Below, piece after piece: positions 10,058 to 13,685 of a stretch of DNA of 40,916 nucleotides. The notes beneath the pieces were generated by a model, which did not search any database, was not told where the DNA came from, and saw nothing but the letters and a program-made list of their open reading frames with translations. The stretch is taken from assembly GCA_022564515.1 (NCBI GenBank), contig JADFLH010000001.1, positions 1 to 40,916 of the forward strand, read 5' to 3'. Both the position numbers and the translations under genes were made by a program. Within the stretch, counting starts at the first letter, position 1. Each line of letters opens with the position of its first letter. This DNA comes from Nitrososphaerota archaeon (GTDB lineage Archaea; Thermoproteota; Nitrososphaeria; Nitrososphaerales; Nitrosopumilaceae).

Positions 10058-10714
10058 TTACATAAAACGTGTAGATGAAGGTACTTCAGATTCTGTTGGT
10101 GTGTTTGGAAATTTGTCATCTACAGAACTTTCAGCTACTGCGGCTGCTTCTTGTAGAATTTTTTCTGATTCAGAATTTGTTGTCTCGTCCATACCAAATG
10201 TTGCGTCTCCTGAAAATGTCTCGGTCATAAGGCCTCCTAGCATTTCTGCCATTTTATTAATCTCCTGATCTGCACCTGGTATGAATTTTACAAGAGATGA
10301 TTTCATATTCTTTATTAAACCGATTGTTGGCATAATAGTAACAATTGTATCACCAAGATCATGTGCGGTGGATATTCTTAGTTCAATTTGTTCTAATGCC
10401 ATCCTAGCATTACCTAGGATTTTTGTAACTTTTCGAATTTCTACTAATTCGTTTGATAAAACTTTAGTGTTTTGAGTTTCGTGTTGTTGAGTTGCAATAA
10501 CAATTCGTTGAAAGATTTTTTCATCTCTCTCTTTTAACTTAGAAAGCATGTTATCCAGTTTAGCAATTTGTTTTTGTAGTCTTTGGATGGCCGTCTGAAT
10601 TCTTGGTTTTAATGGACCCTTTGTCTTAATTACATCATTTATCCTTTCAGTTATACCGGGAGTTGGTAGTTTAGACCATTTCTTTTGGAAGCTTGACACG
10701 GGTTTTTTCTCCAA
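10058..10714 (-). CDS. cdvB: CdvB paralogue, ESCRT-III-like (Snf7 family) protein
   Basis: A 218-residue protein with the archaeal ESCRT-III layout: a basic N-terminus (KPVSSFQKKWSKLP), a long helical hairpin (about residues 30-110, PRIQTAIQRLQKQIAKLDNML then a second helix), then helices to about residue 165 and a low-complexity acidic tail. CdvB-type proteins polymerise on membranes and drive constriction in division with the CdvC (Vps4-like) ATPase. Thaumarchaeota have several CdvB paralogues; this one stands alone, with no cdvA or cdvC nearby. The C-terminal tail carries no clear winged-helix; DDKFPNTP is the only stretch resembling a proline-based MIM2 motif. Family likely, paralogue assignment open. 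Confidence 0.82.
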   Translation of the reverse strand: MEKKPVSSFQKKWSKLPTPGITERINDVIKTKGPLKPRIQTAIQRLQKQIAKLDNMLSKLKERDEKIFQRIVIATQQHETQNTKVLSNELVEIRKVTKILGNARMALEQIELRISTAHDLGDTIVTIMPTIGLIKNMKSSLVKFIPGADQEINKMAEMLGGLMTETFSGDATFGMDETTNSESEKILQEAAAVAESSVDDKFPNTPTESEVPSSTRFM

Positions 10715-10941: not shown

Positions 10942-11041
10942 ATTTACTTTGGGCAGAATTGATAAAAATTTCAAGCAAGATACATCACATAACTATGGCA
11001 ATTTTTTTATTTTAAGATTATTAGCTGATTTTGAGGTTCAA

Positions 11042-11476
11042 ATGAGGAACAGTTTGGGAATTTTTATTGTTATTGCAATAAGTGTGGTTATATCTGTTGG
11101 AATTTGGGCTTCAATACCAGTCCTACCAGAAGTGAATACAGTTTTTCATGTAACTTTAGCCGATCCCAAATTATATGAGGATGGAGTCTATTCTAATACC
11201 TTTAAAATCAAAAAAGGTGCATATGTATTCCGTTTTGTTCCAAGTGGCGACAGTCCACGAACACTAACAATATTATTGAATGGTAAAAATTTTCATTTTT
11301 TTGAAGATTTTGTATTAAAGGGAATACTTCATGAAATGGGAATTTCAGAGTTTTTTACATGGGAGTACGAGGGAGAAAATCGGATTAAAGTTACCGAAGA
11401 TACAGAATTAAAAATAACTATTGATCCCCATCAAAACATAATTGGTCCTGTTTCAATTGAACTAATTGAGGAGTAA
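11042..11476 (+). CDS. Membrane-anchored extracytoplasmic protein, unknown
   Basis: Starting at ATG 11042 the product has 144 residues: an N-terminal signal anchor (MRNSLGIFIVIAISVVISVG) and a mainly beta extracytoplasmic domain (about 35-144) with motifs KKGAYVFRFVPSGDSPRTLTI and a C-terminal strand (GPVSIELIEE). The domain has the look of a small Ig-like or jelly-roll lectin fold, but I cannot name a family. In-frame upstream sequence to 10949 would add 31 residues of poor character ahead of the signal anchor, and the TATA at 10932-10941 would start the transcript after 10949. I therefore chose 11042. Confidence 0.72.
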   Translation: MRNSLGIFIVIAISVVISVGIWASIPVLPEVNTVFHVTLADPKLYEDGVYSNTFKIKKGAYVFRFVPSGDSPRTLTILLNGKNFHFFEDFVLKGILHEMGISEFFTWEYEGENRIKVTEDTELKITIDPHQNIIGPVSIELIEE

Positions 11477-11488
11477 AAAATTAAAATT

Positions 11489-11580
11489 GGCGTGATCCCT
11501 CACTGCAGAACTTTGAGAGATTACCTCTCTTTATCAAGATACAATTCTTGAACGCTGATCTTGTTCTACGGGACCACGCT
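11489..11580. ncRNA. Candidate structured RNA with a branched fold
   Basis: A 92-base non-coding stretch has nested self-complementarity. Outer helix: 11489-11499 with 11570-11580, 10 of 11 pairs including one G-U. Inner helix AGAAC 11507-11511 with GTTCT 11563-11567. Inside it are two hairpins: GAGAG 11515-11519 with CTCTC 11525-11529 (five-base loop), and TCAAGA 11534-11539 with TCTTGA 11546-11551 (six-base loop). Together this is a closed three-way junction. The strand is undecided: minus-strand transcription would have a TTAAATAC box near 11638 and end in a T-rich run, while on the plus strand it could be processed from the upstream gene's transcript. It does not match tRNA, 5S or SRP RNA as far as I can tell. 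Confidence 0.45.
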
Positions 11581-11893
11581 ATTTAGTCGATAGATTTTAC
11601 AGCCATCGGCATCAATAATTATATGAATTTGAAGTATTTAATAGTTTTTGTAAATTTTTACAATAATTTATTGCTATTTAGAAAATATTTTGTGCCTAAA
11701 ATTGTATTCTGAAAAATGTTCCAAAGCTTTTTGACAATTAGTTCTTTTTTAATCAAAAATCAATCAATATCTATGAAACCCCAAAAATTATAGATTGCAA
11801 ATCATTAAACTCATCTCCAAAATGCTAAAATAATATCTCACTACACGTTTTACCAAGTGTTTTAGGATTTTTTGGTTTTACCTTAGATAATTT
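11581..11893. other. AT-rich gap without a recognisable gene
   Basis: No convincing open frame is seen on either strand. The left part could carry the minus-strand promoter of the RNA candidate (TTAAATAC around 11638 and ATATAAT around 11618). GTTTTACC occurs twice in direct orientation (11847-11854, 11875-11882) just beyond the end of the DUF5679-like gene. Confidence 0.4.
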
Positions 11894-12037: not shown

Positions 12038-12179
12038 TTCAATTCATCAAGAGTTTTATACTATTTAGAAAGTAGCGATAAATTTTGTTTAACTAATTGC
12101 AAAATGAAATTCCAGTCTTGACATTTAAACGATGTTTATTTATGAGAATTACTACAAAGTATATCGCTGCGTAATAGTG

Positions 12180-13085
12180 ATGGTTGAAAAGATTTCAGTT
12201 AATGCGAGATGCCCACGTTGTGGCAAGAATGCACTAGTTACAGATGTAGAGACAACTGAGATATTTTGTGGCATGTGTGGTTTTGTTATATCTGAACGGT
12301 TGGAGGATTCTGGTCCAGAGTGGAGGTCCTTTATAGGTGACAAAACCAACAAAGTCAGAACTGGTGATGGAACTTCTCTCACTAGACATGACCGGGGTTT
12401 AGCTACGATAATTGATCCTGTTAATCGAGACTCTACAGGAAAACTACTCTCAAATTCAATGAAGACTACCATTAAGCGTCTTAGAGTATGGGACAGTAGA
12501 AGTCAAGTCAGTACGTCTACACAAAGAAATTTTAGACAAGCATTTTCTGAGCTTGGAATAATCAAAGACAAGCTGACTCTCCCTGATGCTGTGGTTGAAA
12601 AAGCAGCATACATCTACAGAAAGGCAACTGAAAAAAAACTAGTTAGAGGAAGATCAATCTCAACGTTAATAGCTGCAACGTTATACACAGCATGCCGCGA
12701 TATGGGGATACCTAGAACTCTCAAAGACTTTGCTGATACCGCTAATATCAGAAGAAGAAATTTGGCAGTATGCTACAGAATGTTAGTTAAGGAATTAGAC
12801 TTGAAGATGCCAGTTGTGAACTCTATACAGTGCATTGCACGAATTGCAAGTGTAGTTGGGATCTCTGAAAAGTCAAAAAGATACGCAATCAGGATCCTCA
12901 AAAAGGCCCAACAAAATGAAATATTATCTGGAAAAGATCCAATGGGCTTGGCTGCCTCTTCATTGTATATTGCAGGGGTTAGGATGAGAGAGTCCTACAC
13001 ACAGAAGGAGATTGCAATGGCAGCTAGTGTAACAGAAGTGACCGTCCGAAACAGATGCAAAGCACTAAAATCATTGGATGTCTAA
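12180..13085 (+). CDS. tfb: Transcription initiation factor TFB (paralogue 1)
   Basis: TFB, the archaeal TFIIB, recruits RNA polymerase to TBP-bound promoters. The 301-residue protein has an N-terminal zinc ribbon (C11, C14, C30, C33), the B-reader/linker region (SGPEWRSF, then GDGTSLTRHDRGLATIIDP) and two cyclin-like repeats (about 105-195 and 200-295) ending in TEVTVRNRCKALKSLDV. An in-frame ATG at 12132 would add 16 residues, but TATA-like elements at 12124-12130 and 12135-12141 put transcription start after it, and the ribbon spacing equals that of the second TFB when 12180 is used. This is one of two tfb genes within 4.4 kb. Confidence 0.95.
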   Translation: MVEKISVNARCPRCGKNALVTDVETTEIFCGMCGFVISERLEDSGPEWRSFIGDKTNKVRTGDGTSLTRHDRGLATIIDPVNRDSTGKLLSNSMKTTIKRLRVWDSRSQVSTSTQRNFRQAFSELGIIKDKLTLPDAVVEKAAYIYRKATEKKLVRGRSISTLIAATLYTACRDMGIPRTLKDFADTANIRRRNLAVCYRMLVKELDLKMPVVNSIQCIARIASVVGISEKSKRYAIRILKKAQQNEILSGKDPMGLAASSLYIAGVRMRESYTQKEIAMAASVTEVTVRNRCKALKSLDV

Positions 13086-13441: not shown

Positions 13442-13460
13442 TACTATACAAGTGAACAAG

Positions 13461-13685
13461 ATGTCATCAGAAATTCACAATGTATTAAATGAATGGATTA
13501 AAAAAACAGTCTCAATTAAACTAACAAATGGTAATATTGTGAGAGGAACCCTAAAAGGCTTTGATCAACAAATGAATCTAATCTTAGAAAATTCCGAATA
13601 TAGTGTTGATAATAAAACACAAAGTCTTGGAAATGTAATCTTGCGTGCTGCTAACATAATAACTGTCTATCAATCTTTAACATAA
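13461..13685 (+). CDS. Sm-like archaeal protein (LSm)
   Basis: A 74-residue Sm-fold protein that should form a six- or seven-membered ring binding U-rich RNA. Seen: an N-terminal helix (NVLNEWIKK), Sm1 (VSIKLTNGNIVRGTLKGFDQQMNL) with the typical G-x-L-x-G-F-D-x-x-x-N pattern, and a short Sm2 (VILRAANIITV). In Sm2 the usual R-G is R-A. ATG 13461 is preferred; a GTG at 13452 would add only three residues. It is followed by a decayed zinc-ribbon gene on the same strand. Confidence 0.9.
   Translation: MSSEIHNVLNEWIKKTVSIKLTNGNIVRGTLKGFDQQMNLILENSEYSVDNKTQSLGNVILRAANIITVYQSLT

Follow-up and report, generated by a model that had tools for sequence, protein, structure and literature searches.

A 92-base segment at positions 11489–11580 of a 40,916-nucleotide stretch of DNA from a Nitrososphaerota archaeon (the whole stretch analysed, hereafter the window) raises the question of whether an RNA is encoded there and, if so, on which strand, within which limits and for what task. 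The preliminary description had proposed an undescribed, non-coding structural RNA with a three-way junction, either transcribed from the minus strand or cleaved from the upstream mRNA. The four mutually compatible helices that it had placed within the segment were confirmed at their coordinates by direct reading of the window: an outer helix (11489–11499 with 11570–11580) with 10 of 11 positions paired, which on the plus strand includes one G-T pair and one A-C mismatch, an inner helix (11507–11511 with 11563–11567), and two hairpins (11515–11519/11525–11529 and 11534–11539/11546–11551). The segment folded with −28.5 kcal/mol (z −4.5) when read as plus strand and with −36.4 kcal/mol (z −6.3) when read as minus strand, and in both cases none of 200 dinucleotide-shuffled sequences folded as well. 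On the minus strand the A-C mismatch becomes a G-U pair and the inner helix, P2, is lengthened to 7 pairs. These two changes, together with the agreement of all homologues, indicate that the minus strand is the right one.

A blastn-type search of 101 genomes using window positions 11470–11660 (minus strand) as query produced matches in 41, about 28 of them near full length. In the alignment of homologues, conservation reached 5′ beyond the segment, up to a TTAAATA box, and the 3′ end ran into the oppositely oriented neighbour gene. The 92 bases correspond to a 3′ domain alone, to which the conserved unit adds window positions 11581–11612 and the box at 11635–11641. The RNA is a minus-strand unit of about 138 nt, from 11612 to ~11475, both ends being inferred from sequence. 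The segment appears to be the 3′ domain of a free-standing transcript, most likely leaderless; this is an inference from sequence alone, without transcript data. The features of the locus are as follows.

11635–11641, minus strand: TATA-like box, TTAAATA, read directly.
11583–11612, minus strand: mini-ORF of 9 codons plus stop, ATG CCG ATG GCT GTA AAA TCT ATC GAC TAA (MPMAVKSID, stop).
11587–11608 (limits approximate), minus strand: P0 hairpin within the mini-ORF, supported by shuffle controls and by pairing in alignment A4 (see below).
11570–11579, minus strand: 5′ strand of P1 (GCGTGGTCCC), partner of 11490–11499, beginning 3 nt past the stop codon.
11490–11499, minus strand: 3′ strand of P1 (GGGATCACGC), partner of 11570–11579.
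11563–11569, minus strand: 5′ strand of P2 (GTAGAAC), contiguous with P1.
11505–11511, minus strand: 3′ strand of P2 (GTTCTGC), partner of 11563–11569.
11500–11504, minus strand: bulge AGTGA between P2 and P1, on the 3′ side only, seen directly.
11534–11551, minus strand: P3 hairpin, variable, with two-sided changes in every counted pair.
11515–11529, minus strand: P4 hairpin, GAGAG-GTAAT-CTCTC, supported by pairing in A4.
11474–11488, minus strand: T-rich 3′ end (ATTTTAATTTTTTA), a putative terminator, seen directly.
10949–11476, plus strand: convergent neighbour ORF of 175 aa, outside the RNA, without Pfam match.

On the minus strand, then, hairpin P0 lies in the 5′ arm and is followed by P1 (10 bp), P2 (7 bp) and a three-way junction with P3 and P4. 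P2 is contiguous with P1 on the 5′ side, the 3′-side bulge usually measuring 3–7 nt in homologues, and P4 consists of GAGAG, a loop that across the family is mostly GNAAU, and CUCUC. In an alignment of 28 sequences, 91.8% of pair cells were standard pairs, and two-sided changes were found at 19 pairs, amounting to 78 cells, versus 8.8 ± 1.8 pairs and 15.4 ± 3.8 cells in shuffled controls and 7–22 cells in slid alignments. Alignment A4, which contains 52 distinct and more divergent sequences, showed 90.5% standard pairs and two-sided compensatory changes in 30 of 35 pairs, with 225 cells carrying such changes versus 56.5 ± 8.1 after shuffling. By helix, P1 was paired in 98.6% of A4 cells, with two-sided changes in 7 of its 10 pairs, P2 in 94.9%, with such changes in 7 of 7, and P4 in 96%; every counted pair of P3 showed two-sided changes in both alignments. 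P0 was weaker than the other helices (about 69% of A4 cells paired). Over 78 distinct ORF segments, the mean folding z was −2.5 when dinucleotide shuffles served as controls and −2.7 when codon permutations did.

The alignments used for covariation were fitted to a covariance model and lean towards structure. Even so, covariation is strong, since the changes lie far above both controls and single-sequence folding provides independent support: minimum-energy folds recovered P1 and P4 in most homologues, usually together with P2 and P3. RNAalifold on a first, sequence-only MAFFT alignment returned just 12 pairs and −7.1 kcal/mol. This weak result is attributed to length differences that misaligned the 3′ strand of P1, and the alignment was resolved by setting the structure by hand on a cleaner subset and realigning with a covariance model. 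Comparison thus shows a coaxial P1/P2 stem followed by a three-way junction with P3 and P4, and in our judgement the existence of a structured RNA family is, on present evidence, nearly certain. A likeness to 16S rRNA was also considered. The sequence GGATCAC in P1 resembles the 3′ end of 16S rRNA, and the idea was dropped, as covarying changes in relatives (GGATTAC, GGTTTAC) lead P1 away from that sequence.

No family of Rfam 15 reached its gathering score near the locus. When matches up to E ≤ 5 were admitted, snoR135 alone appeared at the segment, with 13 bits versus a gathering score of 45, which is noise; no match overlapped the RNA in the loci of eight diverse relatives. Neither RNase P RNA (RF00373) nor archaeal SRP RNA (RF01857) matched the locus, and the genome carries its own copies of both elsewhere (C77:11359–11637 and C33:44935–45246, respectively). 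ARAGORN detected in the window a tRNA-Pro only, at another place, and no tRNA or tmRNA at the RNA. Regarding H/ACA features, judged by eye and with Rfam only, the bulge between P1 and P2 interrupts just the 3′ strand, and P1 is not followed by an ACA box. No published description of the RNA was found in the openly licensed literature searched.

The distribution of the RNA was surveyed with covariance models. Model R1, built from 12 sequences, detected it, in 1–5 copies, in 221 of 250 genomes from the window's family, the Nitrosopumilaceae, and among high-quality genomes of this family in 126 of 131 (about 96%). A broader model, R2, applied to 400 genomes of the class (82 genera), gave 1–6 copies per genome in the matching family and no match at E ≤ 0.001 outside it; a single weak hit outside the family, in genome G090 (E 0.05), is not believed. 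Within the family, R2 revealed no clear RNA in genera g4, g7, g10 and g13 (e.g. G006, G009, G012 and G015), including genomes more than 90% complete, where the RNA may have been lost or be too divergent. An exact pattern combining the P4 core and the P2 3′ strand occurred in 86 stretches of the contig collection searched, and the named records containing the exact core pattern were overwhelmingly from Nitrosopumilus, Nitrosarchaeum and other thaumarchaeotes. Regarding carriage by viruses, the exact core pattern had no match in IMG/VR, and one member that was searched had none in INPHARED phages. One high-scoring copy (L200:5933–6069) lies in a contig assigned to a 'Hyphomicrobiales bacterium' MAG (DT_98); misbinning is likely, because the same project also includes a Nitrosopumilus MAG (DT_77). 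A divergent class of paralogues was also observed (L095:4073–4202, L096:3958–4087 and L097:4057–4180, all on the minus strand, and L222:1501–1625), having another P4 (AG-AAUG-CU loop), a longer P1 and the same nine-codon ORF, mostly with TGA stops.

The 5′ arm of the RNA contains an ORF in 128 of 131 distinct sequences, of nine codons in 125 and of eight in 3, the latter being shorter by exactly one codon. It starts with ATG (122) or GTG (6) and stops with TAA (75), TAG (38) or TGA (15), and the stop ends 2–5 nt ahead of P1, mostly 3 or 4. Such an ORF was present in 121 of 123 real upstream windows versus about 1% of shuffled-window trials. The three sequences without a standard ORF comprise one cut by the contig end (L141), one weak match (L211) and one that lost its stop (L089). 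In this last case (L089:1501–1627) the stop is changed to CGA, and the ORF would run 12 codons into P1. We consider it very likely that the 5′-arm ORF is conserved as an ORF.

What is conserved in this ORF does not appear to be the peptide. In the ORF alignment the start and stop columns are maintained and every interior column varies; the 78 distinct nucleotide ORFs encode 73 distinct peptides, with no invariant residue besides the initiator M, and along a minimum spanning tree of near sequences 95 nonsynonymous versus 20 synonymous changes were counted, a ratio of about 1.3. These observations argue that the peptide is not what is kept. The ratio is not a clean test, for the P0 hairpin constrains codons and limits synonymous change. 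With that bias acknowledged, comparison shows that frame, length, start and stop are maintained and the peptide is not. Conserved readthrough of the stop into the structured domain was examined and rejected: the ORF frame was open in 13% versus 16% and 16% for the other frames. The gap between stop and P1 is not fixed modulo 3, and in none of the three frames is a continuation past the stop conserved.

A TTAAATA-like box ends exactly 22 nt ahead of the start codon in 116 of 128 RNA genes, and a weaker peak of such boxes, at 21–22 nt, is seen ahead of protein genes in these loci. From this correspondence it is inferred that the transcript is most likely leaderless. At the other end, TTT occurs within 20 nt of the end of P1 in 95% of copies, with a mean of 8.9 T per 15 nt. 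At the main locus the RNA and a short-protein gene converge, an arrangement seen across genera with homologues of that gene. For most copies examined, the gene that follows lies on the opposite strand, a minority (L103, L104 and L115) having a same-strand gene within about 500 bp downstream. Second and third copies (several paralogues) sit in other, unrelated neighbourhoods yet keep box and ORF. The mostly opposite-strand neighbours and the differing neighbourhoods of paralogues indicate that the RNA is a free-standing unit and not a leader.

Other genes were noted around the main locus. In the window, an Lsm (Sm-like) gene (13452–13685, plus strand) and a TFB gene (12132–13085, plus strand) lie 1–2 kb from the RNA, with a DUF5679 gene on the same side, opposite the convergent neighbour; in many genera an Lsm gene is again found close to the main locus of the RNA, and it is a possible partner. 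A Snf7/ESCRT-III-like gene (10058–10714, minus strand; below the Pfam cutoff, E 2e-5) is conserved in other genera downstream of the convergent neighbour of the RNA.

Set against these results, the initial proposal of an undescribed structural RNA with a three-way junction held, given the lack of Rfam matches, the strong covariation and the near-universal presence in the family. Shuffled sequences did not fold as stably on either strand (0 of 200), and helix covariation across relatives exceeded shuffled and slid controls. That no tRNA, 5S, SRP or RNase P RNA signatures had been recognised agrees with the lack of Rfam matches and with the RNase P and SRP RNAs located elsewhere in the genome. 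The proposed minus-strand transcription from a TTAAATAC box is supported by sequence evidence, in the absence of transcript data. The alternative origin, cleavage from the upstream mRNA, is not supported, since that mRNA is plus strand, and is also countered by the paralogues that retain box and ORF in unrelated neighbourhoods. The 92-base extent held in part, as it covers the 3′ domain of a unit of about 138 nt. The label 'non-coding' is inaccurate for the whole transcript, the nine-codon ORF at its 5′ end having been overlooked.

How might such an RNA work? Our favoured reading, to which we assign slightly less than even odds, is that of a leaderless RNA on which one ribosome would halt against the intact fold and which would act in trans; the ribosome mechanism is inferred, with no transcript or ribosome data. 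Transcription would begin at or beside the ATG; a ribosome would load on the 5′ end, open the P0 hairpin and translate nine codons, and would terminate with P1 standing where mRNA enters the small subunit. The stop codon would then occupy the A site, placing the start of P1 about 10–12 nt from the first P-site base. A distance of 10–12 nt from the P site is close to where the ribosome starts unwinding mRNA. The 27-nt ORF and its stop would just fill one ribosome, so that the structured domain would stay folded while the 5′ arm occupies one ribosome footprint. Selection would act on the act of translation, or ribosome placement, and not on the peptide; selection for ribosome placement fits an ORF that is fixed in length and frame but not conserved in its peptide. 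Acting in trans, the RNA would most likely be a regulatory or RNP RNA engaged with the ribosome, its folded domain, with the conserved P4 loop, being presented to a protein partner; partner and target are unidentified. This docking geometry is inferred from what is generally known of ribosomes, and the start site, the 3′ end and translation itself are predictions from the sequence. Counting against the favoured reading are L089, with its lost stop and 12 codons into P1, and the same-strand downstream genes at L103, L104 and L115. A bolder reading, in which we place rather less trust than doubt, is that this is a new class, a ribosome-docked RNA, in which a leaderless mini-mRNA would have a fixed nine-codon ORF for the sole purpose of parking one ribosome beside a fold that would then regulate translation or recruit a partner in trans.

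Among the rival explanations, a micropeptide gene survives best and remains possible. In this case the 9-aa peptide would be the product, e.g. a signal, and the structured part a stabilising 3′ UTR. In its favour, the ORF is real, preserves its frame and retains start and stop in 128 of 131 sequences; some residues recur, among them K-D at positions 3–4 and a final D; and the nonsynonymous excess could reflect diversifying selection. Against it, nothing but the initiator M is invariant among 73 peptides, the structured domain is better conserved than the peptide and covaries throughout, and a hairpin is under selection inside the ORF. Slightly less likely is a base-pairing sRNA, whose 5′ arm or loops would pair with target mRNAs and whose 3′ domain would stabilise it or bind an Lsm protein, the ORF being a by-product of mRNA-like origin. 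The free-standing gene, the occurrence in a genome of several paralogues that diverge and differ in their 5′ arms, and the Lsm gene near the main locus in the window and many relatives agree with this. However, a by-product ORF would not retain nine codons, frame and all three stop types.

Two further alternatives are considered very unlikely. A leader-peptide attenuator, or another cis-regulatory element of the adjacent gene, would account for the succession of short ORF, folded RNA and U-run, which recalls bacterial attenuators, but here and at most copies examined the gene downstream lies on the other strand, copies adjoin unrelated genes, and no competing antiterminator fold was seen among individual folds. 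A divergent housekeeping RNA (RNase P, SRP, 5S, H/ACA, C/D or tRNA-like) would explain near-universality in the family and a high degree of structure, but the RNase P and SRP RNAs are at other places in the same genome, there is no credible Rfam match at the segment (E ≤ 5) or in divergent members, no tRNA or tmRNA lies at the locus, and the RNA occurs in 1–6 copies, carries an ORF in its 5′ arm and has no ACA box that could be seen. Finally, a plus-strand RNA derived from the 3′ UTR of the convergent 175-aa gene is likewise considered very unlikely: the plus strand also folds (z −4.5), directly after the stop codon at 11476, but box distance, ORF, GU-tolerant pairing and T-rich end are all conserved on the minus strand, and paralogues occur elsewhere without the 175-aa gene.

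By analogy, the RNA resembles a mixture of tmRNA, dual-function sRNAs and the ribosome-associated sRNAs of Haloferax volcanii. tmRNA is a small RNA that joins a short variable ORF (about ten codons) with a stop near stable helices and acts on the ribosome, in all of which the new RNA, as read here, would be alike; unlike tmRNA, it lacks a tRNA-like acceptor domain and receives no tmRNA call from ARAGORN, and in place of a resume codon and pseudoknots it has an ATG or GTG at the 5′ end and a three-way junction. Bacterial dual-function sRNAs of the SgrS and RNAIII type similarly combine an ORF and a structured or regulatory part in one small RNA, but their encoded product is functional, whereas the new RNA keeps ORF length and frame and not the peptide, and translation of its ORF is supported by comparative evidence only; there is no homology between them, and the criterion of a conserved peptide is not met (73 peptides from 78 ORFs, with the ratio biased by P0). 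In Haloferax volcanii, ribosome-associated sRNAs are reported to show ribosome occupancy by Ribo-seq, most without evidence of a protein product (PMC12482152). They too are archaeal small RNAs with a link to the ribosome, which for the new RNA is only inferred, but they belong to another lineage and are not known from that report to share a fixed-length ORF or fold (PMC12482152). Tan1, an abundant ncRNA of marine Euryarchaeota (229 nt, with five homologues in Candidatus Thalassoarchaea metagenomes), is likewise an uncharacterised structured archaeal ncRNA of marine plankton, and differs in length and host (PMC5069720). Bacterial leader-peptide attenuators likewise have RNA helices and a U-run after a short ORF, whereas the new RNA has no same-strand downstream gene here and at most copies. 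To our knowledge, a covarying fold and an ORF of fixed length that does not depend on its peptide occur together in no known family. We regard this as a new kind of RNA, or as a variant of dual-function sRNA if any ORF-bearing sRNA counts as one kind.

Archaea of the Nitrosopumilus type rank among the sea's most abundant cells, and little RNA-level regulation appears to have been described in them. Present in about 96% of the family's high-quality genomes, often as multiple copies, and missing from Rfam, this structured RNA is a strong candidate for a core role. Selection on ORF length and frame without conservation of the peptide would point to translation itself as the signal, which is unusual. 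If the bolder reading is true, ammonia-oxidising archaea would possess in this RNA a translation-coupled regulator common to the lineage.
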